Shown here: piece after piece, positions 24,153 to 54,648 of the stretch
Layout of the letters: every line of letters starts with the position of its first letter
How positions within the stretch are numbered: the stretch's first letter is position 1
Assembly: GCF_003664585.1 (NCBI RefSeq)
Contig: NZ_RCHI01000008.1
Span: 62,001-126,000 of the forward strand
DNA: 64,000 nucleotides
Source: Paenirhodobacter hankyongi
Lineage (GTDB): Bacteria; Pseudomonadota; Alphaproteobacteria; Rhodobacterales; Rhodobacteraceae
Direction: 5' to 3'
Made by a program: the position numbers and the translations under genes
Notes under the pieces: model-generated
What the model saw: only the letters and a program-made list of their open reading frames with translations
Told to the model about the DNA's origin: nothing
Databases searched by the model: none

Positions 24153-24224
24153 CCGGAGGCAGATTCCTCCGGTCCCCGCATGAGGCGGGGATCGCCACCA
24201 GTCAGCGCGTTGCGCCCACTGGTG
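24153..24224 (+). ncRNA. Three consecutive hairpins in the ffh leader
   Basis: Hairpin 1 is CCGGAGG/CCTCCGG (24153-24172), hairpin 2 TCCCCGC/GCGGGGA (24173-24191), hairpin 3 CACCAGT/ACTGGTG (24196-24224) with an inner GCGC/GCGC stem. Each outer stem is a perfect 7 bp, and the first two abut. They end 50 bases before the ffh start. No U-tract follows any of them, so they look like a structured 5' leader. I could not match it to SRP RNA: the conserved GGAAG/AGCAGCC loop is absent. Confidence 0.5.
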
Positions 24225-24274
24225 CGCTTGTCGTTTGTCGTGCCGGCCTGCCGGTGCCCCGCATGGAGGTGGCC

Positions 24275-39749: not shown

Positions 39750-40415
39750 TCAGGCGTAAAGCCGCGGGGTGACGAGGGCCGAGCCGCGCAGCGCGTTCAG
39801 ACGCTTCGCCACCGCCAGCACGCCAAGATCGACGAGCGGTTCGACGAGGATCACCGTCATGTAGGCCATGCCGAAGGTCGCCACCTGCGAGACCGCGCCG
39901 AAGCCCTGGCCATAGAAGGCCCAGAAGCCGACCCAGGCGACGATGCCGCCCTGATAGGCGGTCGAGAGCGCGAGGGCCTGCGTATAGCGCAGCTCGACAT
40001 AGGGCGTGCCGGGCGCGATCAGCCGCTTTGCCAGCGCCTGCAGGCCAAAGAGCGGCACCAGCAGCGTGGTCATGTTCATCCCGTATTGCGGCAGGTCGAA
40101 GGGCGCGAAGAACAGCCCCTGGACCAGCAGGCCAAGCGCCAGCCCGATCGCCGCCGGCGCCGCGCCGAGGATCAGGAACAGCGTCGAGCCGAGGATCAGG
40201 TGGACCTCGGACACGCCCACGGGCATGTGCGGCAGCACCTCGAAGAAGGTGAAGACGAGGGCGGTGGCGATCGCCGAGCGGGCGATCAGCGAAACGGCGC
40301 CCTGCGCGCGGATCGCCTCAAAGGCGGTCTTCAGCGTGTAGACGCCCGCAGTGGCAGCGGTGGCATAGCTCAGCAGCAGCTTGGCGCCGGTGACGATACC
40401 GGGTTCGATATGCAT
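39750..40415 (-). CDS. cbiM: Cobalt ECF-transporter permease CbiM-like
   Basis: A 221-residue membrane protein starting MHIEPG, where the N-terminal Met-His is the cobalt-binding loop of CbiM proteins; six or so hydrophobic segments follow (GAKLLLSYATAA, VLPHMPVGVSEVHLILGS). AAGGAG precedes the ATG at 40415. No cbiN, cbiQ or cbiO accompanies it. A cobalamin riboswitch lies directly upstream, so it should be shut off when cobalamin is plentiful. Cobalt supply for CobN fits the neighbourhood. Confidence 0.82.
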   Translation of the reverse strand: MHIEPGIVTGAKLLLSYATAATAGVYTLKTAFEAIRAQGAVSLIARSAIATALVFTFFEVLPHMPVGVSEVHLILGSTLFLILGAAPAAIGLALGLLVQGLFFAPFDLPQYGMNMTTLLVPLFGLQALAKRLIAPGTPYVELRYTQALALSTAYQGGIVAWVGFWAFYGQGFGAVSQVATFGMAYMTVILVEPLVDLGVLAVAKRLNALRGSALVTPRLYA

Positions 40416-40417
40416 GT

Positions 40418-40426
40418 CGGTCTCCT
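40418..40426 (-). promoter_or_regulatory. cbiM ribosome-binding site repeating the B12-box core
   Basis: On the minus strand AGGAGACCG occurs here, forming the Shine-Dalgarno of cbiM, and again at 40466-40474 inside the riboswitch B12 box. Two identical 9-mers 48 bases apart could compete for the same partner strand, a possible translational switch. Confidence 0.5.
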
Positions 40427-40449
40427 TGCCGTCACACCCGACGGCGGTT

Positions 40450-40655
40450 GAGGTTGCCTGCTGGCCGGTCTCCTGGCTCGCGGGTCGCAGCACCTCTTCG
40501 CCTTCCCGGGGAAACCCCAGTGGCAATGTGAAGGGCGCTCGCCGCATACAGTCGCGGGGGCGGCCGGGGCTTCGGGCGCCGCAACTGGGTCCGCCCTTCC
40601 CCGTTCCCGATGAAGCCCGGCGCTTTGCGCGTGATGGGCACCATGCAGGGGTTCA
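40450..40655 (-). promoter_or_regulatory. Cobalamin riboswitch upstream of cbiM
   Basis: Read on the minus strand, the conserved blocks appear in order: GCGACTGTA (40548-40556), CCACTG (40518-40523), GGGAAGG (40501-40507) and the B12 box AGCCAGGAGACCGGCC (40463-40478). Together these identify the adenosylcobalamin aptamer. It ends about 35 bases before cbiM and starts just after cobA, so it would give cbiM-cobF separate control. No U-tract terminator is seen, favouring a translational output. Confidence 0.92.
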
Positions 40656-40680
40656 GATAAACGCCAACGGCGCGCCGAGG

Positions 40681-41430
40681 TCAAGCGCCGCCGGTCTCTC
40701 CGGGCGGCAGGCCGAAGGGGGCGAGCGGGCCATAGAAGATCAGCGCCGGATGGTCGGTGCGCGCGCCCGCCAGCACCTCGGCCAGCTCCGCCACGGTCGA
40801 GCGCAGGAAGCTCTGCCCCTCCTGCCCCACCGCCTCGGCCAGCATCGCGGGGGTGTCGGCCGGCAGGCCCTGCGCGATCAGCCCGCGGGCGAGGTCCGGG
40901 AAGGTGCGCTTGCCCATGAAGACGACGGTGGTCACCCCCGGATCGGCGAGCGCCGCCCAGTTGAGCGTCTCGGGCAGGCCGCCGGTGACGTCGGCGCCGG
41001 TGACGAATTGCAGCCGCCGCGCGGTCAGCCGGCGGGTGAGCGGGATGCCCGCATGCGCCGCCGCGGCACAGGCCGAGGGCACGCCCGGCACGATCTCGTA
41101 AGGGATTCCGGCGGCCAGAAGCGCGCCGATCTCCTCCTCGAGCCGACCGAAGATACCCGAATCGCCCGACTTCAGCCGCACCACGCGTTTGCCGGCCTGC
41201 GCGTGCTCGACCAGGAGCGCGTTGACGTGTTCCTGCTTCGCCGAGGGCCGGCCGGCGCGCTTGCCCACCGCAATCCGCTCGGCCCCCGCCCCCGCATGGT
41301 CCAGCACCGGGCCCGAGGCGAGATCGTCGAACAGCACGACATCGGCGCGCTTGAGCCGGTCGACCGCCTTGAGGGTGATCAGCTCGGGATCGCCCGGGCC
41401 GGAGGAAACGAAGGAGACGAAGCCGGTCAT
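40681..41430 (-). CDS. cobA: Uroporphyrinogen-III C-methyltransferase
   Basis: A 249-residue SUMT making precorrin-2 by methylating C-2 and C-7, the entry step to cobalamin. VSSGPGDPELITLKAVDRLKRADVVLFDDL and VRLKSGDSGIFGRLEEEI are diagnostic. No fused siroheme or uroporphyrinogen synthase domain. ATGA overlap with cobB. Last gene of the long minus-strand cob series before the second riboswitch. Confidence 0.95.
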   Translation of the reverse strand: MTGFVSFVSSGPGDPELITLKAVDRLKRADVVLFDDLASGPVLDHAGAGAERIAVGKRAGRPSAKQEHVNALLVEHAQAGKRVVRLKSGDSGIFGRLEEEIGALLAAGIPYEIVPGVPSACAAAAHAGIPLTRRLTARRLQFVTGADVTGGLPETLNWAALADPGVTTVVFMGKRTFPDLARGLIAQGLPADTPAMLAEAVGQEGQSFLRSTVAELAEVLAGARTDHPALIFYGPLAPFGLPPGETGGA

Positions 41431-42773
41431 GCGCTGGCCTTTGCGATCAGGTGGAAGAAGGTGCCGGTGACGCGCCCGCCGCCCGGGGTGAGGCGCAGCG
41501 AGCCGGTCTCGGCCACCGCCGCGCCAGTGGCGTCGGTGACGGCGGCAAGCGGCGCGTCGGGCTGCGCGAGGATCGTGGCATAATGGAACTCGTGCCCGCG
41601 CAGGCGGGTGCCGGGCGGGGCGACGGGCGTGGGCGCCGCAAGCGTGGCGAGTCGATATCCGAGATGCATCCGGCGTGTCGCGAAAGAGGTTTCGAGCCCG
41701 AGGAGCCCGGTCATAGGATAGCGCGCCCCGTCGGCCGCGACGAGCCCCGCGCCAAGCACCATGTAACCGCCGCATTCGCCATGCACCGGGCGGGTTTCGG
41801 CAAAGGCGCGCAGCCCGGCGCGGAAGGTCTCGGCGGCAGCCAGCCGCGGCGCGTGCAGCTCGGGATAGCCGCCGGGCAGCCAGCAGGCATCGGCACCCGG
41901 GTCGGGCGCCTCGTCGGCGAGCGGCGAGAACGGCACGATCGTCGCCCCGGCCGCGCGCCATTCGGCCAACAGATGCGGATAGACGAAGGAAAACGCCGCG
42001 TCGCGGGCCAGCGCGATGCGCCCGCCGGGCGGGGCAAGGCGCGGCACCGGCCCGGCGTCCATCGGCACGGACATGGCCACCGCCTGCATCCGCTCAAGAT
42101 CGCAGCAGCGCGCGATCACCGTGCCCGCCTCGGCCAGCAGCGCATCGAGTTCCGAGGTCTCCTCGGCCTGCACGAGGCCCAGATGCCGCTCGGGCAGGCG
42201 GATGCCCGCGGCGCGCGGCAACACCCCCAGCACCTCGATCGCCACCGCCTCGAGCCCGCGCCGGATCAGCGCCTCGTGCCGCGCCGAGGCGACATTGTTC
42301 AGCACCACGCCGGCAAGCCGCACATCGGAACGGTAACGCGCAAAGCCAAGCGCCATCGCCGCAACCGATTGCGCCGCGCCCGAGGCATCGAGCACCAGCA
42401 CCACCGGCCAGCCGGTCAGCGCCGCGATATCGGCCGAGGCGCCGATCCCCGCCTCGCCCGGCACCGCGACCCCGTCGAACAGGCCCATCGAGCCCTCGGC
42501 GATCACCAGCCCCGCGTCATCTGGCGCGGTCAGCGCGGCGATCTGCCCTGCCGTCATCGCCCAGCTGTCGAGATTGACCGAGGCGCGCCCGGCGGCGGCG
42601 GCGTGAAAGGCCGGGTCGATGTAATCGGGCCCGCATTTGAACGGCCGCACCGCGACGCCGCGCGCCCGCAGCGCGGCAATCAGGCCGAGCGTCAGCGTGG
42701 TCTTGCCGGTGCCCGAGGCGGGCGCGGCGATCAGCAGCCCCCCCGTCATCCGCCTTGTCATCCGCCCCGTCAT
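41427..42773 (-). CDS. cobB: Hydrogenobyrinic acid a,c-diamide synthase
   Basis: A 448-residue glutamine-dependent amidotransferase that amidates side chains a and c using ATP. The N-terminal half has the P-loop [19 protein letters not shown] and the C-terminal half the class I glutaminase-like domain with the nucleophile in [12 protein letters not shown]. Initiation could be at 42773 or at Met codons 5 or 9; ATGA overlap with cobM supports the first. Confidence 0.95.
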
Positions 42774-43552
42774 GCGCCCGTATCCGGGAAGCGCGGCGCC
42801 GCGCCGCGCGGGCGGAAACGGCGGTCATAATCGCCGGCGTAAAGACGGCTTTCGCCGAAGTCCTCGGCGCCAAGCGAGCGGCCGACGAGGATCAGCGCGG
42901 TGCGCTCGCCCTCGCCCACCGCCGGGTCGAGCGTGCCGAGCGTCGCACGCAGCACCCGCTCGTCGGGCCAGCTTGCGCGCCAGACCACCGCCACCGGGCA
43001 ATCGGCGCCGTAATGCGGCGTCAGCTCGGCGATCACGCGCGGCAGCACATGCACCGACAGGTGGATCGCCAGCACCGCCCCGGTCGCGGCGAAATTCGCC
43101 AGCGTCTCGCCCTCGGGCATCGCCGAGGCGCGCCCCGAGGTCCGGGTCAGCACCACCGATTGCGCGACGCCGGGCAGGGTCAGCTCGGCCCCCAGCGTTG
43201 CGGCGGCGGCGGCGAAGGCCGGCACGCCCGGGGTGACGTCATAGGGAATGCCGAGCGCGCGCAGCCGGCGCAGCTGCTCGCCCATCGCCGACCAGACCGA
43301 CAGATCGCCCGAATGCAGCCGCGCCACGTCCTGCCCGGCGGCATGGGCCGCGGCGATCTCGTCGATGATCGCGTCAAGGCTGAGCGGCGCGGTGTTCACG
43401 ATCCGCGCACCGGGTGGGCAATGGGCGAGCAGCGCCTCGGGCACCAGGCTGCCAGCATACAGGCAGACCGGCGCGGCGGCGATCAGGTCGCGCCCGCGCA
43501 GGGTGATCAGATCGGCGGCGCCGGGACCCGCGCCGATGAAATGGACGGTCAT
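42770..43552 (-). CDS. cobM: Precorrin-4 C11-methyltransferase
   Basis: A 260-residue tetrapyrrole methylase. [28 protein letters not shown] and [15 protein letters not shown] identify the CobM/CbiF group, which methylates C-11 to give precorrin-5. Four-base overlaps with cobE upstream and cobB downstream. Confidence 0.95.
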
Positions 43553-43896
43553 TCGGTCTCTCCTTCGGACAGGGCAAGGGCGACGGTCACGCCGCCCGGA
43601 CAGATGCGGCGCGGCACGGCAAGGCGGGCGCCCGGGCCCGCGGCGACCAGCGCCGCCGCCTCGGCCACCGATCCGGTGCCATGGGCCGCCAGAATGCGCG
43701 GCGCGCGGGTGGGGGTGGGCACGCCCGCGACCTCGACCGCACGCACCGGCAGCCCAAGCGGCACCACCGCCGCCCGCAGCGCCGCGGCCTTCGTGGGCAG
43801 CGTCGCCAGCGCATCGAGCCGGCCCAGGGGGGCCAGCGCCGCCGCGATCTCGGCCGCCGTCGCGGCCGCGCGAAAGCCCACGCCCGCGACCCTCAT
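43549..43896 (-). CDS. cobE: Cobalamin biosynthesis protein CobE (CbiG C-terminal domain)
   Basis: A 115-residue protein matching the C-terminal domain of Cbi[38 protein letters not shown] and [16 protein letters not shown]. CobE belongs to the aerobic pathway and has been linked to handling of precorrin intermediates. The start at 43896 overlaps the cobL stop (ATGA); an upstream Met would lie inside cobL. Confidence 0.85.
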
Positions 43897-45083
43897 CGGG
43901 TCACGCTCCACTGCACCACCGGGCGCGCCGGCGCCCAGCCGCGACCCCGGCCAAGCGGTGCCACCTGCGCGATCTCGATCCGCAGCAGCGTGCCGCCGTG
44001 GCGGGCATGAAGCGCGATCAGCAGCGCCTCGGTTTCAAGCGTGACGGCATTGGCGACGATCCGGGTGGCGGGGGCAAGCGCCTCCCACAGCGCCGCGAAC
44101 AGCGCCTCGGAACCGCCACCACCGACGAAGACGGCATCGGGTGCAGGCAGGCCGGCAAGCGCGGCGGGCGCCTGGCCTTGCACCGCCTGCATCCGTCCGC
44201 CAAGGCCGAACTCCGCGATATTCGCGCGGATGTTGTCGAGCCGGTCCGGCCGCGGCTCGATCGTGCAGGCGCGACCGCCGGCCAGGCACCACTCGACCGA
44301 GACCGAGCCCGAGCCGCCGCCGATGTCCCACAAGAGTGCGCCGGGTCGGGGGGCAAGGGCTGCAAGGGTCAGCGCCCGCACCGGCGACTTGGTGATCTGC
44401 CCGTCATGGGCAAAGGCCGCCTCGGGCAGGCCCGGGCTGCGCGGCAGGCCGGCCCCCGCGGGCAGCGCGGCGCCGTCGAGCGCCACGGCAACGGGGGCCG
44501 CGATCTCGTCCAGATCGAAAGCATCGGCGCGGGCGCGGCGCAACCGCTCGGCCGGGCCGCCCAGCCGTTCGAGCACCGTCATCCCGACCGCGCCGAAACC
44601 GCCATCGGCGAGCCAGCGCGCGAGATCGGCCACCGCCGCGCCGTCACGCAGCGTGGCGATGACCCGGACGCCGCGGCACAGCACCGGGCGCAGCCGCGCG
44701 AAGGGGGCAGCGTGCAGCGCAAGGCAGGTCGTGTCCTCCAGCCGCCAGCCCATCCGGGCGGCTGCCAGCGAGCACACGCCCGCAACCGGGATCGCCCGCC
44801 ACTCGCCGGGGCCGAGCGCCGCCGCCAGGACCGCCCCCGCCCCCGCCCAGAACGGATCGCCCGAGGCCAGAACCACCGTGCGCCGGCCCCGCTCGGCCAG
44901 CACCGGCGCGATGTCGAAGGGCACGGGCCAGGCCCGCGCGCGCGCCCCGGCGCCAACCAGCTCGAGGTGCCGCGGCCCGCCGAAGATCACCTCGGCCGTG
45001 GCGAGTGCGGCACGGCTTGCATCCGGCAGCCCGGCAAGGCCATCTTCGCCAAGACCGACGATCAGCAGCCAGGGCTCAGCCAT
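43893..45083 (-). CDS. cobL: Precorrin-6Y C5,15-methyltransferase (decarboxylating)
   Basis: A 396-residue bifunctional enzyme: the N-terminal CbiE-like methylase ([21 protein letters not shown]) and the C-terminal CbiT-like methyltransferase/decarboxylase ([19 protein letters not shown]). It methylates C-5 and C-15 and removes the C-12 acetate carboxyl. AAGGA lies eight bases before the ATG. The ATG at 45083 interlocks with the plus-strand ATG of cobK (both within CATG 45081-45084), and its promoter, if any, must lie inside cobK. Confidence 0.95.
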
Positions 45084-45837
45084 GACGCGCATCCTTCTTC
45101 TGGGCGGCACCACCGAGGCGAGCCGCATGGCCGCGGCGCTGGCCGCCTCGGGCCTGCCCGCGCTCTTCTCCTATGCCGGGCGCACCGGGGCGCCGGCGCC
45201 GCAGCCGCTGCCCACCCGGATCGGCGGCTTTGGCGGGGTGGCGGGGCTGGTGGCCTTCCTGCGCGCCGAAAACATCGGCGCGGTGATCGACGCCACCCAC
45301 CCTTTCGCCGCGCAGATGAGCCGCAACGCGATCGCCGCCTGTGCCCAGACCGGCGTGCCGCTCGTCGCGCTGGAACGCGCGCCGTGGCGGGCGGAGCCGG
45401 GCGACCGCTGGACCGCCGTGCCCGACATCGCGGCCGCCGTCGCGGCGCTTCCCGAGGCGGGCGCGCGGGTGTTTCTGGCGATCGGCAAGCAGACGCTCGC
45501 CCCCTTCGCCGGAAAGCCCGGCAATCACTATCTGCTGCGCCTTGTCGACCCGCCCGAGGGGCTGCTGCCGCTGGCCGATGCCGAGGCGGTGATCGCCCGC
45601 GGCCCGTTCAGCACCGAGGGCGACATTGCGTTGCTGCGCGACCACGGCATCACCCATGTCGTCGCGAAGAACGCCGGCGGCGCGGGGGCCGAGGCGAAGC
45701 TGATCGCGGCGCGCGCGCTCGGCCTTGGCGTCATCGTGATCGACCGCCCCGCCCTGCCGCCGCGCGAGGTCCGCGCCGAGGTCGCCGGGGTGAGTGAGTG
45801 GCTCGCCGCTCACGGCTTCACCCCGCGCGGCGTATAG
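45082..45837 (+). CDS. cobK: Precorrin-6A reductase on the opposite strand
   Basis: A 251-residue NADPH-dependent reductase converting precorrin-6A to 6B. RILLLGGTTEASRMAAALA is the nucleotide-binding start; VIDATHPFAAQMSRNA, AIGKQTL and VVAKNAGG are CobK/CbiJ landmarks. It is the only plus-strand gene between cobJ and cobL. Its start codon interlocks with that of cobL and its 3' end overlaps cobJ by 28 bases. No clear ribosome-binding site precedes it, and any promoter must lie in cobL. Confidence 0.95.
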   Translation: MTRILLLGGTTEASRMAAALAASGLPALFSYAGRTGAPAPQPLPTRIGGFGGVAGLVAFLRAENIGAVIDATHPFAAQMSRNAIAACAQTGVPLVALERAPWRAEPGDRWTAVPDIAAAVAALPEAGARVFLAIGKQTLAPFAGKPGNHYLLRLVDPPEGLLPLADAEAVIARGPFSTEGDIALLRDHGITHVVAKNAGGAGAEAKLIAARALGLGVIVIDRPALPPREVRAEVAGVSEWLAAHGFTPRGV

Positions 45838-46547
45838 ACCCAGCGACCGACCCGCCGCGTCCCGGAATTGCCGACCAGCACCACGGTGCGCATGTCGGCC
45901 ATCTCGGACCGCGCCTCGGCCAGCGTCACGGTGCAGAGTGCCTCGTCGGGCGTGCTGACGGCGCGGGCGAAGGTGATCAGCCGGCCGGGCTCGCAGCCCG
46001 CGCGCAGGATTTCAAGCACGCGGGCAAAGCCCTCGGGCCGCGCCTTCGAGCGGGGGTTGTAGAAGGCCATGGCGAAATCGCCCGCGATCGCGGCACGCAG
46101 CCGACGCTCGATCACCGCGACGGGCTTGAGGTTGTCGCTCAGGTTGATCGCGCAGAAGTCGTGGCCAAGCGGCGCCCCCGCCCGCGCGGCGGCGGCCAGC
46201 ATCGCGGTGATGCCCGGCAGGATGCGGATGTCGGCGCCCGCATGCTCCGGCGCGGCCTCGAGCGCCTCGAAGAGCGCCGAGGCCATGGCGAAGACCCCGG
46301 GATCGCCCGAGGAGACGATCACCACCCGCCGCCCTTCGGCCGCAAGGGTCAGCGCAAGGGCGGCGCGGTCGAGCTCGACCCGGTTGTCGGAGGGGTGGAG
46401 CGTCAGCCCCGCCCGCGGCGCGATGCGCGCGACATAGGGGATATAGCCCACGACATCCGTTGCCTCGGCCAGCGCCGCGCTGACCTCGGGCGTCACCAGC
46501 GCCTCGGCCCCCGGCCCCAGCCCCGCAACCGCGATCCAGCCGCTCAT
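45810..46547 (-). CDS. cobJ: Precorrin-3B C17-methyltransferase
   Basis: A 245-residue methylase responsible for C-17 methylation and ring contraction. WIAVAGLGPGAEALVTPEV, DVVGYIPYV and VSSGDPGVFAMASALFE are CobJ/CbiH hallmarks, and MAFYNPRSKAR is conserved. ATGA overlap with cobI. The 3' end is antisense to the last 28 bases of cobK. Confidence 0.95.
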   Translation of the reverse strand: MSGWIAVAGLGPGAEALVTPEVSAALAEATDVVGYIPYVARIAPRAGLTLHPSDNRVELDRAALALTLAAEGRRVVIVSSGDPGVFAMASALFEALEAAPEHAGADIRILPGITAMLAAAARAGAPLGHDFCAINLSDNLKPVAVIERRLRAAIAGDFAMAFYNPRSKARPEGFARVLEILRAGCEPGRLITFARAVSTPDEALCTVTLAEARSEMADMRTVVLVGNSGTRRVGRWVYTPRGVKP

Positions 46548-47287
46548 GCCGCCTCCTCCGCCGCCGGTCGCCGCCCCTGACCATGCACCAGCACGATCGC
46601 GAAATAGGGGCAGTCGGCATCGTCGACCTCGCTCAGCCGGGCGATGCGCTCGCCGGGCATGGTGCCGCGTTCGACAAGCCAGGCCGCCTCGAGCCGCCCG
46701 GCCTGCGCCAGCGCGCGCCGCACCCGCGGCAGGTTGCGCCCGGTCTTCATGATGACCAGCGCATCGGCACGCGCCATGTGCCCGGCGAGCTCGTCCTCGG
46801 GCAGGGTGCCCATCAGCACGGTCAGCACGTCGTCGCCCCAGGTGAAGGGCTCGCCCGTCGCGTTCCAGCAACCGGTCATGCCGGTGATGCCGGGGATCAC
46901 CTCGATCTCGACCTTGCCGCGCAACCGCACGTAAAGGTGCATGAACGAGCCATAGAAGAACGGGTCGCCCTCGCAGGGGATGACGACATCGCCCGCCTGC
47001 GCGAGCGTCACCAGCCGCGCCGCCCAGCTGTCGTAGAAAGCCGCCAGAAGCGCGTTATAGGCGGGGCTGTCGAAGGGGATCTCGGTCGTCACCGGATATT
47101 CCATCGGATGCTCGGCGACGCCCGCGGGCAGCAGCCCCTCGACGATGCGCCGCGCCTGGCCCTGCCGGCCCTTCTTGCGGAAATAGGCGATCTGGCGGGC
47201 CGTGCGCAGCGCCCGGTCCGCCCGCACCGAGATCAGATCGGGGTCGCCGGGGCCGAGCCCGGCACAGATGATGCGTCCCATGTTCAT
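46544..47287 (-). CDS. cobI: Precorrin-2 C20-methyltransferase
   Basis: A 247-residue methylase. GRIICAGLGPGDPDLISVRADRAL, IAYFRKKG and CEGDPFFYGSFMHLY mark CobI/CbiL, which makes precorrin-3A. The start at 47287 overlaps the cobH stop (ATGA); a second Met two codons on is also possible. Confidence 0.95.
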   Translation of the reverse strand: MNMGRIICAGLGPGDPDLISVRADRALRTARQIAYFRKKGRQGQARRIVEGLLPAGVAEHPMEYPVTTEIPFDSPAYNALLAAFYDSWAARLVTLAQAGDVVIPCEGDPFFYGSFMHLYVRLRGKVEIEVIPGITGMTGCWNATGEPFTWGDDVLTVLMGTLPEDELAGHMARADALVIMKTGRNLPRVRRALAQAGRLEAAWLVERGTMPGERIARLSEVDDADCPYFAIVLVHGQGRRPAAEEAA

Positions 47288-47913
47288 TCCTTCCGGCTGG
47301 CGAGGGCATTCACCGCGGCGACGGTGATCGCGGAACCGCCAAGCCGCCCCTCGACGATCAGGCAGGGCACCGGCGCCGCGGCGATCAGCGCGGCCTTCGA
47401 TTCCGCCGCCCCGACGAAGCCCACCGGACAGCCGATGATCGCCGCCGGCCGCGGGCAGGTCGGGTCCTCGAGCATGTTCAGCAGGTGAAAGAGCGCCGTC
47501 GGCGCATTGCCGATCGCCACCACCGCGCCGCCCAGATGCGGCCGCCACAATTCCAGCGCCGCGGCCGAGCGGGTGTTGCCCATCTCGCGCGCCAGATCCG
47601 GCACCGCCGGGTCATGCAGCGCGCAGAGCACGTCATTCGCGGCGGGCAGGCGGGCGCGGGTGATGCCCTCGCTCACCATCCGCGCATCGCACAGGATCGG
47701 CGCGCCGGCCTGAAGCGCGGCGCGCGCCGCCGCCGCCATGCCGGGGGTGAAGCGCACCGCGCGCTCCAGCCCGACCATCCCCGCGGCATGGATCATCCGC
47801 ACCACGACGGGTTCCTCGTCGGGGGTGAAGCGGGCAAGGTCGGCCTCGGCGCGGATCATCGCGAAGGATTGCGCATAGATCTTCGCGCCGTCCTTTTCGT
47901 AGTCATAGGGCAT
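47284..47913 (-). CDS. cobH: Precorrin-8X methylmutase
   Basis: A 209-residue enzyme that moves the methyl group from C-11 to C-12, giving hydrogenobyrinic acid. VVVRMIHAAGMV contains the catalytic His, and IGNAPTALFHLL with IIGCPVGFVGAAESK are invariant segments. One-base overlap (TGATG) with cobG. Confidence 0.96.
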   Translation of the reverse strand: MPYDYEKDGAKIYAQSFAMIRAEADLARFTPDEEPVVVRMIHAAGMVGLERAVRFTPGMAAAARAALQAGAPILCDARMVSEGITRARLPAANDVLCALHDPAVPDLAREMGNTRSAAALELWRPHLGGAVVAIGNAPTALFHLLNMLEDPTCPRPAAIIGCPVGFVGAAESKAALIAAAPVPCLIVEGRLGGSAITVAAVNALASRKE

Positions 47914-49049
47914 CAGGAAAACTCCGGCAGGGAGGGGATCTCGGCCGCGCTCAGGGCACGGCGGCAGGGGGTGTCCGCGGCGCGGCCACGGGCGATCAGG
48001 TCAAAGCCCGCGGGCGTCGCGGTCAGCGTCAGCGCGGCCGGCGCCGGATGGGCGCAGCCCTTGGCACAGCCCGAGACATGCAGCACCGCCCCGGGCGGCA
48101 GCTGCGGTGCCAGCGTGCGGGCGAGCGCCCGGGTCTCGGCCAGGGCCTGCGGACAGCCCGGCGCGCCGGTGCAGGCATAAACGCGCAAAAGCGGCTCGGC
48201 CGGGTCGGTGATCAGGCCCGGCAGCTCGGGCAGGCGCGAAAGCCCCTCGATCAGCAGCATCCGCCAGGGCGTCAGGCGCAGCGCGCCAAGGCCGGCGAGC
48301 GTTGCCAGAAGATCGGCCCGCATCTGACCGAAGGGAAAGGCCACGAGCGCGCCGGCAGGGCACAGGCCCGGCCCGGGCGGGGCGCAGGCCGGCGCCGGGG
48401 CCAGCCGCGGCGCCAGCGCGCCCTCGGGCCGCGCGCCCCGCGCGGTCAGCGCCGCCATCCGGCCGCGGCCGTCCGTCACACCACCCGCCGCCACGAACCA
48501 GCGGGCAAGCGCGATCGCCGCGGCGGGGGCTTCGGCCGCGGTCACCGGCGCGCCCGCGGCCAGCCCCTCGGCGCGCAGGATCAGCCCGCCATCCCGGGCG
48601 CGCTCCAGCCGGATATCGGCGGGCGTGCCTTGCAGCACCGGCGCCGCGCCGGTGTCGACGGCAAAGCCGAACTTGCCGGGCAGCAGGGGCGCCTCGGAAA
48701 GCGCCCCGGCCAGCGCCGCCGCGAGCGCGTCGGTCGCGGCATCGGCAAAGGGGGTGACCAGGATGTTGCGCCGGGTCTCGGCCGCGACATCGTCGTCAAT
48801 GAGCCCCGCCCCGCGCAAGGCCGCGATCAGCGGCGCGTGGCTCTCCGCCGTCACCCCGCGCAGCTGCACATGCGCCCGGCCCGAGAGGTCGATGATGCCG
48901 CTGCCGAAGCGCCGCGCCGCCTCGGCCACACGCGCCGCGGCGTCGGCGCTCAGCCGCCCGCCCGGCGGGCGCAGCCGCACCACCAGCCCGTCGCCAGAGG
49001 CCATCGGGCGCAGCGCGCCCGGGCACCAGCCCTGCACCGTGAAACTCAT
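47913..49049 (-). CDS. cobG: Precorrin-3B synthase
   Basis: A 378-residue nitrite/sulfite-reductase-like monooxygenase that uses O2 to make the C-20 hydroxy lactone before ring contraction; its presence marks the aerobic pathway. The 4Fe-4S ligands are in YACTGAPGCPQ and SGCAKGCAH. The start at 49049 overlaps cobN (ATGA). Slightly shorter than some CobG proteins but both ferredoxin-like halves are visible. Confidence 0.93.
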   Translation of the reverse strand: MSFTVQGWCPGALRPMASGDGLVVRLRPPGGRLSADAAARVAEAARRFGSGIIDLSGRAHVQLRGVTAESHAPLIAALRGAGLIDDDVAAETRRNILVTPFADAATDALAAALAGALSEAPLLPGKFGFAVDTGAAPVLQGTPADIRLERARDGGLILRAEGLAAGAPVTAAEAPAAAIALARWFVAAGGVTDGRGRMAALTARGARPEGALAPRLAPAPACAPPGPGLCPAGALVAFPFGQMRADLLATLAGLGALRLTPWRMLLIEGLSRLPELPGLITDPAEPLLRVYACTGAPGCPQALAETRALARTLAPQLPPGAVLHVSGCAKGCAHPAPAALTLTATPAGFDLIARGRAADTPCRRALSAAEIPSLPEFS

Positions 49050-52000
49050 CGCAGATCCTCCAATGCCGCGGCGATCGCATTGCGCCGACTGTGCCACAGC
49101 CCCGCCTCGGCCAGCCGCCGGAACAGGTCGCGCAGCGCGGCAAGCGCGCCCGGGTTTTCCGCCGCCATGAAATCGGTCACCTCGGGCCGGCCAAGGGTCG
49201 CCTCGAAGTAAAGGTCGAAGAGATGCGCCGGCACCGCGTCTGCAAGCTGCGCGAAGGCGGCCAGGTGATCGGCCGTCGCCGCGATCTCGGCCGCGCCGCG
49301 AAAGCCGTGGCGCATCATCCCCGCCGCCCAGTCCGGATTCGCGGCACGCGCACGCACGACCCGGGCGATCTCCTCGGTCAGGCTGCGGGCGCGGGGGCGG
49401 GCGGGATCGGTGGTGTCGAGGTGGTAAAGCGCCGGCGCCGGCGCCCCGAGCCGCGCCATCGCCGCGGCAAAGCCCGCCTCGTGGCCGGCGTAATCGACGG
49501 CAAGCAGCAGGTCGCTTTCGGGCAGATCCTGCGCATGGACGAAGGCATCCGCCCCGGCAAGCCGGGTCTCGAGCGCCGCACGTTCGGGCCGCACCGCGCC
49601 ATCCGCCCCGATCGCATGGGCCGAGGCCGCAAGCCAGGCCTCGCCCGCCGCCGCCCGCGCCTCGGGCGTCAGCGCCGCAGTGACATCGCCCATGCCCAGC
49701 CCGTATTGCCCCGGCCGCGGCCCGAAGACGCGCGGGATGCGGGCGGTATAGGGGTTGTCCTCGGGCGCCTCCTCGCGCCCCGCGAGCGCCGCGGCGCCGG
49801 TCTCGAAAAGCTGCGCGAGGGCCGGAAAGATGTCGCGAAAGAGGCCCGAGACCCGCAAGGTCACGTCGATCCGCGGCCGGCCCAGAAGCGCCGCCGCGAT
49901 CACCTCGACCCCGGTCACCCGGCCCGATTGCGCGTCCCAGACCGGTTTCAGCCCGGCCAGCTGCAGCGCCATGGCGAAATCCTCGCCCGCGGTGCGCATC
50001 GTGGCCGAGCCCCAGAGATCGACGACCAGACCCCGGGGCCAGTCGCCGTGGTCCTGCAGGTGGCGGCGCAAGAGCTCCTCGGCGTGCGTCACCCCCTGCG
50101 CATGGGCGGCGGGCGTCGGCACCGCGCGCGGATCGACGGAAAACAGGTTCCGCCCGGTCGGCAGCACGTCCGAACGCCCCCGCGCCGGACTGCCCGAGGG
50201 GCCGGGCGCCACCCGCCGGCCGGCGAGCGCCGCGATCAGCCCCGCGCGCTCGGCCGCGCCACAGGCGCCCCGGCCGAAGACATGAAGCCCGTCGCCGAAG
50301 CGGCTTTCCTTCAGGTCGCAGACGAAGCGGTCGATGCGGGTGATCGCCTCGGCGGGGCTGGCGCCCGCAGACAGGGCGAGGTCCTCGGCCACCCCGCTTG
50401 CCGCCGCCGCGTCGCGGATCGCGCCGATCAGCCGGTCGCGCCGCGCCGGGTCGAGCCCGTCGGCGGTCGAATATTCGTCAAGCAGCGCCTCGAGCCCGGC
50501 CAGCCGCTCGGGCAGTGCGGCTTCGGTCAGCGGCGGCGGCAGGTGGCCAAGCGTGACCGCCCCCAGCCGGCGCTTGGCCTGCGCGGCCTCGCCCGGGTCG
50601 TTGACGATGAAGGGGTAAATGACCGGCAGCGGGCCCAGCAGCACCTCGGGCCAGCACGCCGCCGAGAGCGCCACCGCCTTGCCCGGCAGCCATTCGAGCG
50701 TGCCATGCGCCCCCATGTGCACGAGCGCCTGCAGCCCCTGCGCCCGCAGCCACAGGTAGAAGGCGACATAGCCGTGCCGCGGCACCCGGGCGAGGTCGTG
50801 ATAGTCGGCCTCGCGCGCCGTGACCTCGCCACGTTCGGGCTGCAGCGCCAGCAGGATCTTGCCCCGGCGCAACGCGGCGAAGTGGAAGGCGCCATCGTGG
50901 CAGGCGGGGTCCTCCGCCGGCGCGCCCCAGGCGGCGGCCAGATCGTCGCGCAACACTGCGGGCAAGGCGGCAAGCGCCGCCTGATATTCCGCCAGCGGCC
51001 AGCTCATCCGCTCGGTCGCCAGCGCTTCGGCCCCCGGCCCCGGTGCGATGTCATAGCCCTCGGCCGAAAGGTCATCGAGCAGCGCCCCGGTCGAGGCAAG
51101 CGCATCGAGGCCCACGGCATGGGCCATCTGCCAGCTCCGCCCCGGATAGGTCGACAGCACCACGGCCACCGCCCGCGCCGGGGCCGGGGTGGTGGCCAGC
51201 CGGTGCCAGGCCGCAACCCGCGCCACCAGTGCGGCGATCCGGTCGGGCTCGGGCGCGTGGATCAGGCGGGCGTGTTCCAGCACCGCGTCGCGCGCGGCCG
51301 GCGCCTTGAACGAGACGACGCCGGCAAAGATCCGGCCATCGACCTCGGGCAGCACCACGTGCATCGCCAGATCGGCGGGCGAGAGGCCACGCTCGGCCGC
51401 GGCCCAGTCGGCGCGGGCGGCGGTCGACAGCGCGCCCTGGAAGACCGGCACATCAAGCCCGTCAAAGGGTGTGCGCCCCGCCGCGCCCTGCGCCGAAAAG
51501 GCGGTGAGGTTGACCACCGCGACCGGCGGCGCCGCGGCCAGATGCGGGGCGAGCCAGTCGGCAAAGCCCGGCGCCTTGAGCGAGGGCGCAAAGCAGGCCG
51601 TGGCCTGAAACCCCGCCGCGCGGAGGGCCTCGATCAGCGCCGCGACCGGCGCCATGTCGGCCGCCGCCAGCCAGGCGCGGTAACAGGGCACAAGCACCCG
51701 CGGCCCCGCGCCCACAGGCGCGGGGGTCACCCCCGCCTCGGGCGTCCAGAAGCCGAATTCGGGGAGCGCCGCCGGCGCATCGGGCGCGGGCGCGGGCAGG
51801 CCCGCGGCGCGGGCCAGGTGGCACAGCGCGGCGCGCGCGGCCTCGGCTCCGCCCGCATCGCACAGCGCGGCAAGGGTGGCGAGCGTCTCCGCGGGCAGGG
51901 TCGAGGCCTCGGCCAGCCGCGGATCGGGCCGGCCATCGGCAGGCAGAACGGCCAGCGCCATGCCCCGCCGCCGCGCCAGATCCTGCACCGAGGCAAGGCC

Positions 52001-52285
52001 ATAGGGCCAATAGCCCTCGCCGCCGATCAGCCGGATCAGCACCGCCTTCGCCCCCCCGAGCGTGCGCTCGAGATAGGTGTCGACCGAGACCGGGTGGCGC
52101 AGCGCCGCCAAGGGGGCAAGCCGCAAGGGCGGCAATGCCCCCGCCGCCGCATGCCAGCCCTCCGCGAAAGCACCGAGATCCGAATCCGAGAAGGACAGCA
52201 CCACCAGATCCGCGGGCGATTGCCCCAGATCGGTCGGCACTTCGGTCTCCTCGAGCCCGTGGCTTTCGCGGAAGACGACATGCAT
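49046..52285 (-). CDS. cobN: Cobaltochelatase subunit CobN
   Basis: A 1079-residue BchH-like large subunit that binds hydrogenobyrinic a,c-diamide and cobalt. Landmarks include YWPYGLASVQDLARRRG, GAHGTLEWLPGKAVALS and VDLWGSATMRTAGEDFAMALQLAG. It is shorter than the roughly 1,250-residue enzymes usually described, mainly by compact loops as far as I can judge. The ATPase partners CobS and CobT are not in this window. One-base overlap with cobW. Confidence 0.95.
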   Translation of the reverse strand: MHVVFRESHGLEETEVPTDLGQSPADLVVLSFSDSDLGAFAEGWHAAAGALPPLRLAPLAALRHPVSVDTYLERTLGGAKAVLIRLIGGEGYWPYGLASVQDLARRRGMALAVLPADGRPDPRLAEASTLPAETLATLAALCDAGGAEAARAALCHLARAAGLPAPAPDAPAALPEFGFWTPEAGVTPAPVGAGPRVLVPCYRAWLAAADMAPVAALIEALRAAGFQATACFAPSLKAPGFADWLAPHLAAAPPVAVVNLTAFSAQGAAGRTPFDGLDVPVFQGALSTAARADWAAAERGLSPADLAMHVVLPEVDGRIFAGVVSFKAPAARDAVLEHARLIHAPEPDRIAALVARVAAWHRLATTPAPARAVAVVLSTYPGRSWQMAHAVGLDALASTGALLDDLSAEGYDIAPGPGAEALATERMSWPLAEYQAALAALPAVLRDDLAAAWGAPAEDPACHDGAFHFAALRRGKILLALQPERGEVTAREADYHDLARVPRHGYVAFYLWLRAQGLQALVHMGAHGTLEWLPGKAVALSAACWPEVLLGPLPVIYPFIVNDPGEAAQAKRRLGAVTLGHLPPPLTEAALPERLAGLEALLDEYSTADGLDPARRDRLIGAIRDAAAASGVAEDLALSAGASPAEAITRIDRFVCDLKESRFGDGLHVFGRGACGAAERAGLIAALAGRRVAPGPSGSPARGRSDVLPTGRNLFSVDPRAVPTPAAHAQGVTHAEELLRRHLQDHGDWPRGLVVDLWGSATMRTAGEDFAMALQLAGLKPVWDAQSGRVTGVEVIAAALLGRPRIDVTLRVSGLFRDIFPALAQLFETGAAALAGREEAPEDNPYTARIPRVFGPRPGQYGLGMGDVTAALTPEARAAAGEAWLAASAHAIGADGAVRPERAALETRLAGADAFVHAQDLPESDLLLAVDYAGHEAGFAAAMARLGAPAPALYHLDTTDPARPRARSLTEEIARVVRARAANPDWAAGMMRHGFRGAAEIAATADHLAAFAQLADAVPAHLFDLYFEATLGRPEVTDFMAAENPGALAALRDLFRRLAEAGLWHSRRNAIAAALEDLR

Positions 52286-53328
52286 CAGGCGGCGGCCTCG
52301 CTCAGCGCGGCGCGGATCGCCCCGGCGTCGACATCGGCGCGTTCGGCGATCACCACGAGGGCCGAACGGCGCGGATCGGCGCCCCAGGGCCGGTCGAACT
52401 GCCGCCGCACCCGCGCGCCGACCGCCTGCACCAGAAGCCGCATCGGCTTGCCGGTGACCGCGACATGGCCCTTCACCCGCAGGATGTTGCGCTCGGCCGC
52501 CAGCCGCTCGATCGCGGCGACAAGGCGCTCGGGATCGGCGACCTCGGGCAGCTCGATCACCACCGTGTCGAAATCGTCATGCTCGTGATCGCCGTGGTCA
52601 TCGTGATGCGAGGGGCGCGCAGCAAGGTCGTCCTCGGCCGCGGCGGCAAGGCCCAGCACCACGGCCGGATCGATCGCGCCCTCGACCATCGGCAGGATCG
52701 GCAGCGGCCGCGGCGCCTCGGCCTCGATCGCGGCGCGGGCGGCGGCAAGCCCCGCCTCGCCGGCGAGATCGGCCTTCGACAACAGCACGATATCGGCGCA
52801 GGCGATCTGGTCCTCGAACACCTCGGACAGCGGCGTCTCGTGGTCGATGCTGTCATCGGCGGCGCGCTGCGCATCGACCGCGGCCAGATCCGGGGCAAAG
52901 CGCCCGGCCGCCACCGCCTCGGCATCGGCGACCGCGATCACCCCGTCGACGGTGATGCGCGAACGGATCGCCGGCCAGTCGAAGGCCTTGAGCAGCGGCT
53001 TCGGCAGGGCAAGGCCCGAGGTCTCGATCAGGATGTGGTCGGGGCGGACGGGCTGGGCCAGAAGCGCCTCGATCGTCGGGATGAATTCGTCGGCGACGGT
53101 GCAGCAGATGCAGCCGTTCGCCAGTTCGACGATATTGTCGAGCGGACAGCTCTCGTCGGCGCAGGCGCGCAGGATGTCACCGTCGACGCCCACGGTGCCG
53201 AATTCGTTCACCAGGATCGCCAGGCGCCGGCCCTGCGGGTTCGCCATCAGATGGCGGATGAGCGTGGTCTTGCCGGCACCGAGAAAGCCGGTGATCACGG
53301 TGACGGGGATCTTGGTCAGGTCGGTCAT
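52285..53328 (-). CDS. cobW: CobW GTPase, cobalt metallochaperone
   Basis: A 347-residue G3E GTPase. P-loop GFLGAGKTT at residues 14-22, metal motif CICC at 73-76 (NGCICC), and a His/Asp-rich linker (SHHDDHGDHEHDDFD) before the CobW C-terminal domain. CobW is thought to deliver cobalt to the CobNST chelatase, and it is placed directly before cobN. The start at 53328 is three bases after the upstream stop. Confidence 0.95.
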   Translation of the reverse strand: MTDLTKIPVTVITGFLGAGKTTLIRHLMANPQGRRLAILVNEFGTVGVDGDILRACADESCPLDNIVELANGCICCTVADEFIPTIEALLAQPVRPDHILIETSGLALPKPLLKAFDWPAIRSRITVDGVIAVADAEAVAAGRFAPDLAAVDAQRAADDSIDHETPLSEVFEDQIACADIVLLSKADLAGEAGLAAARAAIEAEAPRPLPILPMVEGAIDPAVVLGLAAAAEDDLAARPSHHDDHGDHEHDDFDTVVIELPEVADPERLVAAIERLAAERNILRVKGHVAVTGKPMRLLVQAVGARVRRQFDRPWGADPRRSALVVIAERADVDAGAIRAALSEAAA

Positions 53329-53330
53329 GG

Positions 53331-53684
53331 TCACTCCTGCGGGGGGATGCGGGCAAGGCTCTGCTTGCGGAAGATCTCGGGGCGCGCGCGCCAGGGCACG
53401 AGCCCGTCGGCGCTGGCGGCATAGAGCGCGGCGCCGGAGAGGATCTCGGCGGCGTTTTCGGGGCTCAGGCGGCCGTAGACATAGCTCCACTTGCCCGGCG
53501 CGCTCAGCGCCACGGCACAGCCCTGCGCACAGGCCGAGAGGCATTCGACGCCCCGGATGCGCAGCCCCTCGGGGCAGCGGCCCGCGGCCAGTGCGGCCAG
53601 CAGCGCGGCACCGGGGCGCGCGCCCTCGCCGGGGTCCTCGCCCGCCCTGCGGCAGGTGGTGCAGACATGAAGTGTCGCGGTCAT
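53331..53684 (-). CDS. DUF1636-type metal-binding ferredoxin-like protein
   Basis: A 117-residue protein with six cysteines: C8, C11 (VCTTC), C37, C48, C52 and C56 (ECLSACAQGC), the layout of DUF1636 and resembling thioredoxin-like [2Fe-2S] proteins. It heads the riboswitch-controlled operon just before cobW. AAGGA lies upstream of the ATG at 53684. A role in metal or electron supply to the pathway is inferred from position; none is proven here. Confidence 0.75.
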   Translation of the reverse strand: MTATLHVCTTCRRAGEDPGEGARPGAALLAALAAGRCPEGLRIRGVECLSACAQGCAVALSAPGKWSYVYGRLSPENAAEILSGAALYAASADGLVPWRARPEIFRKQSLARIPPQE

Positions 53685-54027
53685 CGCCCGTCCTTCCAGT
53701 TCGCGGAAAGGGGGCTGGCCAAGGGATCGACGGGCACACGGGGGCGACCGGCAATCCACCCGGTCGCGGCACACCCCGTCCGCCCGTAATCGTCAGCGCT
53801 GGCAGGTCTCCCGGCTTGCGGATCCAGGGTTTCCCCAACGGGCGCCCACCTTCCCGGCCAAAGGCCAGTGGCTTGGGCGACCTTTCCGGTCACGGTCGCG
53901 GGGGCGGCTGCGCTTGAGGCCCGGCAAGGCCCTATCGCATTCCCTCTTCGCCTGTCGTAGGACAGGAACCAACGCGCGGCCACCAGAGGCCCGGGCGCGC
54001 GATTTGTCAAGCCGAAGGAGAGCCGCG
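53685..54027. other. Divergent control region of the cob operon and cobO
   Basis: A 343-base gap with the minus-strand cobalamin riboswitch (53795-53972) and about 110 bases between it and the DUF1636 gene, in which no terminator hairpin with a U-tract is obvious. The cobO ribosome-binding site AAGGAG is at 54015-54020. Promoters for both directions must lie in or next to the riboswitch sequence. Confidence 0.6.
53795..53972 (-). promoter_or_regulatory. Cobalamin riboswitch heading the main cob operon
   Basis: On the minus strand, GCGACCGTGA (53890-53899), CCACTGG (53865-53871), GGGAAGG (53849-53855) and the B12 box AGCCGGGAGACCTGCC (53801-53816) appear in the right order. It precedes DUF1636-cobW-cobN and should repress the operon when adenosylcobalamin accumulates. 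Confidence 0.92.
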
Positions 54028-54648
54028 ATGACGCCCGAGACCGAAGCCGACGCCGCCCGCCACGCCGCGAAGATGGCCAGGAAGAAGGCCGCGCGCGACC
54101 GGATGATGGCGACGAAGACCGGCGAGAAGGGGCTGATCATCGTCCATACCGGGCCGGGCAAGGGCAAAAGCTCGTCGGGCTTCGGGATGATCCTGCGCGC
54201 CATTGCGCATGAGATGCCCTGCGCCGTGGTGCAGTTCATCAAGGGCAGCTGGGACACTGGCGAGCGGCGCCTGATCACCACCCATTTCGGCGATCTGTGC
54301 CGCTTCGTCGCCTCGGGCGAGGGCTTCACCTGGGAAACCCAGGACCGCGAGCGCGACATCGCCGCCGCCCGCGCCGGCTGGGACAAGGCCAAGGCGCTGA
54401 TCCGCGACCCCGAGATCCGCATGGTGCTGCTCGACGAGATCAACATCGCGCTGCGCTATGGCTATCTCGACCTCGACGAGGTCCTGGCCTTCCTGCGCGA
54501 CGAGAAGCCCGAGATGACCCATGTCATCCTGACCGGCCGCAACGCCGCCGAGGCGCTGGTCGAGGCGGCCGACCTGGTGACCGAGATGACGCTGGTCAAG
54601 CACCCGTTCCGCGCCGGCATCAAGGCCCAGCCGGGCGTCGAGTTCTGA
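54028..54648 (+). CDS. cobO: Cob(I)yrinic acid a,c-diamide adenosyltransferase
   Basis: A 206-residue CobA/CobO/BtuR-type ATP:corrinoid adenosyltransferase. The P-loop HTGPGKGKSSSGFG, QFIKGSWDTGE and VLLDEINIALRYGYL are conserved. It attaches the upper adenosyl ligand after cobalt insertion. It runs divergently from the riboswitch operon and has no riboswitch of its own in view. AAGGAG precedes the ATG. Confidence 0.96.
   Translation: MTPETEADAARHAAKMARKKAARDRMMATKTGEKGLIIVHTGPGKGKSSSGFGMILRAIAHEMPCAVVQFIKGSWDTGERRLITTHFGDLCRFVASGEGFTWETQDRERDIAAARAGWDKAKALIRDPEIRMVLLDEINIALRYGYLDLDEVLAFLRDEKPEMTHVILTGRNAAEALVEAADLVTEMTLVKHPFRAGIKAQPGVEF

Follow-up and report, generated by a model that had tools for sequence, protein, structure and literature searches.

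Why should a gene lie on the opposite strand in the middle of the operon that serves its own pathway? The question is raised by the cob locus of Paenirhodobacter hankyongi, in a stretch of 64,000 nucleotides (nt) (contig NZ_RCHI01000008.1, positions 62,001 to 126,000; hereafter the window, to whose numbering all coordinates refer). Here cobK (precorrin-6A reductase, 45082–45837, plus strand) runs antiparallel to the cob operon, between cobJ (precorrin-3B C17-methyltransferase, 45810–46547, minus strand) and cobL (precorrin-6Y C5,15-methyltransferase, CbiE+CbiT, 43893–45083, minus strand). The comparative analysis described below suggests that the cob operon is probably a noncontiguous operon, in which translation of the stretch antisense to cobK would bridge cobJ and cobL.

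The window cobK is a real gene of 251 amino acids, matching PF02571 (E=3.2e-71) and scoring above the cut-offs of TIGR00715 and NF005968, with an AlphaFold model of high predicted local distance difference test score (pLDDT 93.7) and predicted template modelling score (pTM 0.88) from a 17-row alignment. The free interval between cobJ and cobL is exactly 726 nt, and cobK overhangs both of its ends: the last 28 nt of cobK overlap the 3’ end of cobJ, while a CATG at 45081–45084 contains both divergent start codons, that of cobK on the plus strand and that of cobL on the minus strand. The family matches and coordinates thus bear out the earlier sequence-only reading, in which cobK on the plus strand filled a 726-base gap. 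That reading had also placed ten cob genes on the minus strand around cobK; the strand was correct, and eleven were counted (cobW, N, G, H, I, J, L, E, M, B and A). Among these, cobJ (TIGR01466) and cobL (TIGR02467 and TIGR02469) were checked against family libraries and scored above the cut-offs; the remainder were named from reading the sequence, most with the backing of a matching gene order in an annotated Paracoccus record. An opposite-strand gene therefore lies between genes that, judging from their layout, form one operon.

On the operon strand, an open reading frame (ORF) of 245 codons with a GTG start (45076–45813, minus) lies codon-for-codon opposite cobK. Its start overlaps the TGA stop of cobJ in the tetranucleotide GTGA (45810–45813, minus), and its stop overlaps the start of cobL in the sequence ATGGCTGA (45076–45083, minus). 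This frame and its wide conservation had been overlooked in the sequence-only reading; the arrangement is a general design, not a local oddity.

Comparison of cobK orientation in related genomes, which the sequence-only reading had proposed, was carried out on 275 loci: some came from the order of the window, others from its class and phylum, and the rest from 80 named relatives and four plasmid records. The order sample comprised 130 genomes with a match, of which 90 loci were read; the 80 named loci were the best matches to the query and are biased to close relatives. The layout counts are unweighted for natural abundance. After removal of duplicates 271 loci were kept, the other four holding a cobK already seen or none. 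The inverted layout of the window (context A, cobJ> <cobK cobL>) recurs in 183 distinct loci, while in 67 cobK follows cbiD on the same strand (context B); the remaining 21 are arranged otherwise. Recurrence on this scale shows that the arrangement is not due to chance. Context A was found in Rhodobacter, Paracoccus, Tabrizicola, Acetobacter and Rhodospirillum, and among the Burkholderiales in Rubrivivax, Polaromonas, Acidovorax and Rhodoferax. Within Rhodobacter, R. capsulatus has the layout in L034 and L036. Since the layout is spread over such varied genera and families, the inversion of cobK is probably old. In context B, the cbiD-cobK pair lies on the strand opposite cobM and cobA wherever these were seen, and inverted cobK may descend from such a unit that has lost cbiD. 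Genomes that we read as Pseudomonas-like have cobL, cbiD and cobK in line, and in a Clostridia plasmid cobK is in line with the plasmid's cob genes. The two-gene cbiD-cobK unit opposite cobM and cobA was noted in L116, L166, L172, L181–L184, L187, L189 and others. Separately, a second cobK-family gene, located elsewhere in the genome, is present in several members of the window's family (G002, G021, G034, G036, G052, G068, G107, G115, G146 and others).

Analysis of the operon strand in context A revealed that the antisense frame and its joints are widely shared. One locus, L096, has a split cobL and was left out of the frame counts, leaving 182 loci with all three genes. In 170/182 of these the frame in phase with cobK has no interruption between the cobJ stop and the cobL start. 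Counting displaced starts raises this to 176, the six additional loci having the frame open across cobK with the start displaced, by 279 nt in L128. The other two frames of the operon strand are interrupted by stops, on average 5.4 and 4.9 of them, and none of the 170 loci has either frame open. At the upstream joint, the bridge start overlaps the cobJ stop as NTGA (offset −4) in 151 of the 170 open loci (ATG 119, GTG 30, TTG 2), with the remaining 19 at −1 to +8. At the downstream joint (ATGNNTGA), the bridge stop ends 8 nt into cobL in 132/170, and elsewhere its position ranges from 61 nt upstream to 29 nt downstream of the cobL start. The distance between the divergent starts of cobK and cobL is −2 in 122/182 loci. 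A 4-mer resembling the Shine-Dalgarno (SD) sequence precedes the bridge start in 82/170 loci, compared with 15–17% at random places; the corresponding counts are 130/170 for cobL and 125/170 for cobK. CobK has a His opposite the −4 start in 150 of 172 in-phase context-A loci, and the same column is a gap in 51/67 context-B sequences; by this comparison the His codon opposite the bridge start is a trait of context A.

Changes of offset on a tree of 180 loci (70 offset changes, of which 7 changed phase) were considered as proof that phase is maintained, and were set aside, since two coding frames that overlap hold their phase in any case, and only the loci with a free gap are informative. In the 19 loci with at least 17 nt of free sequence between cobJ and cobK, the frame is in phase and open through the gap in 15, open with another start in three and broken in one.

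The codons TTA, CTA and TCA in cobK read as stops in the antisense frame, and their frequency was compared with expectations derived from codon usage in the remaining cob genes of each locus. All three are absent from cobK in 173/183 context-A loci (79.3 expected), and the total number observed is 67 against 263.5 expected. The control genes lacked these codons in 67/183 loci for cobJ (77.1 expected), 101/183 for cobI (83.9), 86/155 for cobH (72.8) and 58/153 for cobM (51.9). No depletion was found in context B, where 7 of the 51 cobK genes that could be tested (12.1 expected), and 11/67 overall, are free of the three codons. The ten context-A exceptions comprise six broken frames, one misplaced start in the gene call (L039), two loci with the codon outside the bridged stretch (L169 and L224) and one with the codon at its very edge (L227).

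The avoidance extends to loci of moderate G+C content (GC). With locus GC of 0.55–0.60, the three codons are absent from cobK in 11/12 loci, from cobJ in 0/12 and from cobI in 1/12; below 0.55 all four cobK genes carry some of them, in L169 only outside the bridge. In the 126 loci with GC of at least 0.6, cobK uses TTA, CTA and TCA at 0.10, 0.03 and 0.03 of the rate in the other genes, while 28 other codons range from 0.60 (TCT) to 1.62 (ATA). Restriction to one locus per genus gave 99/108 cobK genes free of the three codons against 47.1 expected. The reading frame is thus kept open by selection, a feature that it shares with antisense overlapping protein-coding genes.

A later set, sampled after the first results, consisted of 150 genomes from another order, of which 122 had a match; 70 loci were read, comprising the 30 best-scoring and 40 picked for new families or genera. 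Three of its 34 context-A loci had already been seen and were dropped, leaving 31 new loci, from 15 family codes absent from context A of the first set. The antisense frame is open in 31/31, and cobK lacks TTA, CTA and TCA in 31/31, compared with 13/31 for cobJ, 18/31 for cobI and 11/31 for cobL, and with 5/23 for context-B cobK of the same set. The in-phase start lies at −4 in 28/31. One of these is L292, where the bridge begins at the cobJ stop and continues across a 242-nt gap. The separation of cobJ and cobK is 242–268 nt in L291, L292 and L293 (families f339 and f320). Taken over both sets, the bridge appears to have been kept across several orders of Alphaproteobacteria and in Burkholderiales.

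The product of the frame shows no comparably clear conservation. Nearly all changes at four-fold sites of cobK alter a residue of the antisense product, and in 1104 same-locus pairs from 150 loci the identity at these sites is 0.515 for cobK, within the 0.488–0.542 of five other cob genes. Because the four-fold sites of cobK are as divergent as those of the other genes, the antisense product is not clearly conserved. Neither Pfam nor NCBIfam gave a match for it at E≤1. The sequence has a high content of Gly, Arg, Ala and Gln, and AlphaFold2 yielded no predicted fold (pLDDT 35.9, pTM 0.10; 18-row alignment, similar in depth to that used for CobK). What is selected seems to be the openness of the frame and its joints rather than the product sequence. 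On balance we favour the view that the element is selected for being translated and not for what it encodes, acting as an antisense translation bridge opposite a gene of the same pathway.

We infer co-transcription, translation of the frame, and a purpose in re-initiation or in averting polarity, along the following pathway. A riboswitch-controlled transcript would run through cobW to cobJ, then through the antisense of cobK, then through cobL to cobA. Ribosomes finishing cobJ would begin again at the overlapping NTGA and read through about 245 codons lying codon-for-codon opposite cobK. They would terminate a few bases within cobL or shortly before its start, and from there re-initiate on cobL. 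The antisense stretch of ~730 nt would thereby stay covered by ribosomes, preventing polarity and allowing both ribosomes and transcription to reach cobL to cobA, with the bridge peptide as a by-product. CobK would be made separately, from a promoter in the 5’ part of cobL.

Analysis of synonymous sites revealed a signal consistent with such a promoter. In codons 10–25 of cobL, synonymous-site A/T is 1.74 times the expected value, compared with 0.85–1.11 in five other genes, in which single outlying sites are also present; over whole genes, the strongest 15-codon window reaches 1.82 in cobL and 1.13–1.32 elsewhere. On the cobK strand this region of the window contains the pair CTTG(CA)-N18-(C)CATCT (45016–45045), about 37–66 nt before the cobK ATG. 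It consists of a candidate −35 element, CTTGCA (45016–45021, plus), conserved at synonymous sites within the cobL codons, and, 18 nt downstream, a candidate −10 element, CCATCT (45040–45045, plus), showing the same kind of conservation. The CTTG and CATC cores are both in place in 73 of the 122 loci with the CATG joint, and the pair may represent a cobK promoter inside cobL. Candidate ribosome-binding sites are AGGG for cobK, inside cobL (45071–45074, plus), and AAGGA for cobL, inside the cobK codons (45092–45096, minus). The synonymous sites of cobK contain no promoter-like window for cobL, the maximum of 1.24 lying near the cobK start at the cobL ribosome site; therefore no separate cobL promoter is indicated. 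A strict scan for E. coli-type promoters over 40400–54200 found none, and the terminator-like sites in the same interval (5 against 4.4 expected) are uninformative.

A cobalamin riboswitch (RF00174, 95.8 bits) lies upstream of the operon, before cobW, at 53784–53988 (minus), and a second directly after cobA at 40446–40661 (minus), in line with the riboswitch-driven transcript from 53.7 to 40.7 kb that the sequence-only reading had envisaged. The second is at the 5’ end of an ORF at 39750–40547, and a second B12-controlled unit probably lies downstream of the cob operon. A 147-codon ORF between the first riboswitch and cobW (53331–53774, minus) is possibly the first gene of the operon. No riboswitch was found at the cobJ/K/L junction in the window or in 14 other context-A loci searched, nor anywhere in 14 context-B loci searched. 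Elsewhere in the window, an ffh small RNA (RF01793, 63.4 bits) was found at 24181–24232 (plus).

It is difficult to account for a coupled open frame if the cob transcript does not cross cobK. The proposal of a noncontiguous operon, already made in the sequence-only reading, thus gains strong though indirect support from the frame (170/182 and 31/31 loci), and further support from the lack of a riboswitch at the junction and of a promoter-like signal for cobL in cobK within the loci analysed. Several observations nevertheless weigh against a maintained translation bridge. None of the eight window cob genes counted contains TTA, CTA or TCA, and because these GC-rich genes share the trait, the open frame of the window is uninformative by itself. 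Among the controls, cobI and cobH are also somewhat more often stop-free than expected. The effect weakens when each family code is represented by a single locus, with 15/21 cobK genes free of the three codons (8.3 expected) and 61 codons against 71.2 expected, since most of the broken frames belong to single families. In overlapping genes the two coding frames by themselves impose conservation of phase, which adds no independent evidence. C is not enriched in the antisense stretch, with a C-over-G skew of about zero, so that a proneness to Rho as judged by skew was not borne out.

Divergence at four-fold sites gave a further point of this kind. In unpaired bins of equal protein identity, cobK has a four-fold identity close to or exceeding the highest values of the other genes (0.475 against 0.423–0.478 in the 0.6–0.7 bin, 0.524 against 0.455–0.521 in the 0.7–0.8 bin, and 0.619 against 0.493–0.565 in the 0.8–0.9 bin), although for a fast-changing protein these bins favour more closely related pairs, which may account for the excess; some constraint on the antisense product may accordingly exist. 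Finally, the frame is truly broken in 6/182 loci (L121, L129, L135, L146, L150, L158), three of them among the four loci with GC below 0.55, and the bridge is thus, as read from these loci, dispensable in some lineages. At least 65 nt separate the cobK and cobL starts in four of the six broken loci and in 8/176 others, as if cobL had room for a promoter of its own; the link is weakened by the 11/31 intact later loci that are also wide, with start places defined slightly differently.

The alternative that survives best, at the level of a doubtful possibility, is mutual antisense control, in which cobK RNA and operon RNA would repress each other by collision or RNase III and so tune the reductase step. 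The layout fits the excludon and noncontiguous operon as described in PMC7154746, and cobK apparently has a promoter of its own directed against the operon; however, mutual repression leaves the stop-free antisense strand and its joints to cobJ and cobL unexplained, and would be counter-productive for an enzyme needed together with the others. Such control may coexist with the translation bridge.

It is unlikely that the antisense frame encodes a functional protein whose product keeps the frame open. The length of the frame, its fixed start and stop places, the SD-like motifs in 82/170 loci and, with the caveat of closer relatives, the identities in the unpaired bins are in line with a protein, but the same-pair four-fold sites are as divergent as those of five other cob genes, and the composition, the low-confidence model and the lack of family matches described above argue against it.

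Also improbable is a division into two units, with cobJ transcription ending in or before cobK, a cobL promoter inside cobK, and the inversion a relic of a cbiD-cobK unit. The association of cobK with cbiD opposite cobM and cobA in other families and the probable age of the inversion would agree with this, as would the account, in PMC13323073, of untranslated RNA as a usual target of Rho in E. coli. A division of this kind leaves the strong stop avoidance and fixed joints without a reason, and neither the synonymous-site A/T of cobK (maximum 1.24, against 1.82 in cobL) nor the 14 context-A loci lacking a junction riboswitch supports it. That the open frame is a chance product of high GC and cobK codon bias is very improbable: a high GC often leaves in-phase antisense frames open, and the eight window genes conform, but the same-locus controls, context-B cobK, the other codons, the later set and the loci of GC 0.55–0.60 (cobK 11/12, cobJ 0/12) all contradict it.

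The cobK strand has a history of its own. In Pseudomonas denitrificans, cobK was reportedly first assigned to the complementary strand, an assignment corrected by Blanche et al. in 1992, who are said to have treated the complementary frame as a mis-assignment and not as a maintained feature. That earlier assignment would correspond to the frame described here. In Ensifer, overlapping stop and start codons are reported between cobH, I, J, K and L (PMC4070679), which would fit the older assignment of the cobK strand; the accessions given in that paper include GenBank M59301 of P. denitrificans. No publication on the antisense frame as a maintained feature was found, which is weak evidence of novelty given that subscription journals were mostly outside the search and sources were seen in part.

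Noncontiguous operons and excludons are described in PMC7154746, from which the following comparisons are drawn. In the Staphylococcus aureus operon menE-menC-MW1733-ytkD-MW1731, an opposite-strand gene likewise lies inside an operon; the cob transcript would in the same way contain the full antisense of cobK. Unlike in S. aureus, the antisense region of the cob locus appears to have been maintained as a frame that is translated and coupled to the gene on either side, in a layout that is old. As in an excludon, overlapping opposite transcripts would be expected at both ends of cobK, but here both sides of the locus act in one pathway. The antisense overlapping genes pop, ano, asa and laoB of E. 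coli O157:H7, proposed as protein genes, resemble the bridging ORF in being antisense to an annotated gene; unlike them, the bridge is part of an operon, is conserved over several orders and shows no clear constraint on its product.

If the proposal is true, antisense RNA inside an operon can stay productive by being translated, a solution to transcriptional polarity, and a translation bridge would make a noncontiguous operon contiguous for ribosomes. Genome annotation hides such bridges because only one strand is annotated. Avoidance of TTA, CTA and TCA in an inverted gene, together with joints at both of its ends, would provide a genome-based test for real noncontiguous operons that requires no RNA data. 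The cob locus would also represent a case of deeply conserved coding on both strands in bacteria, and the bridge may bear on B12 production strains that have cobK in its native place.

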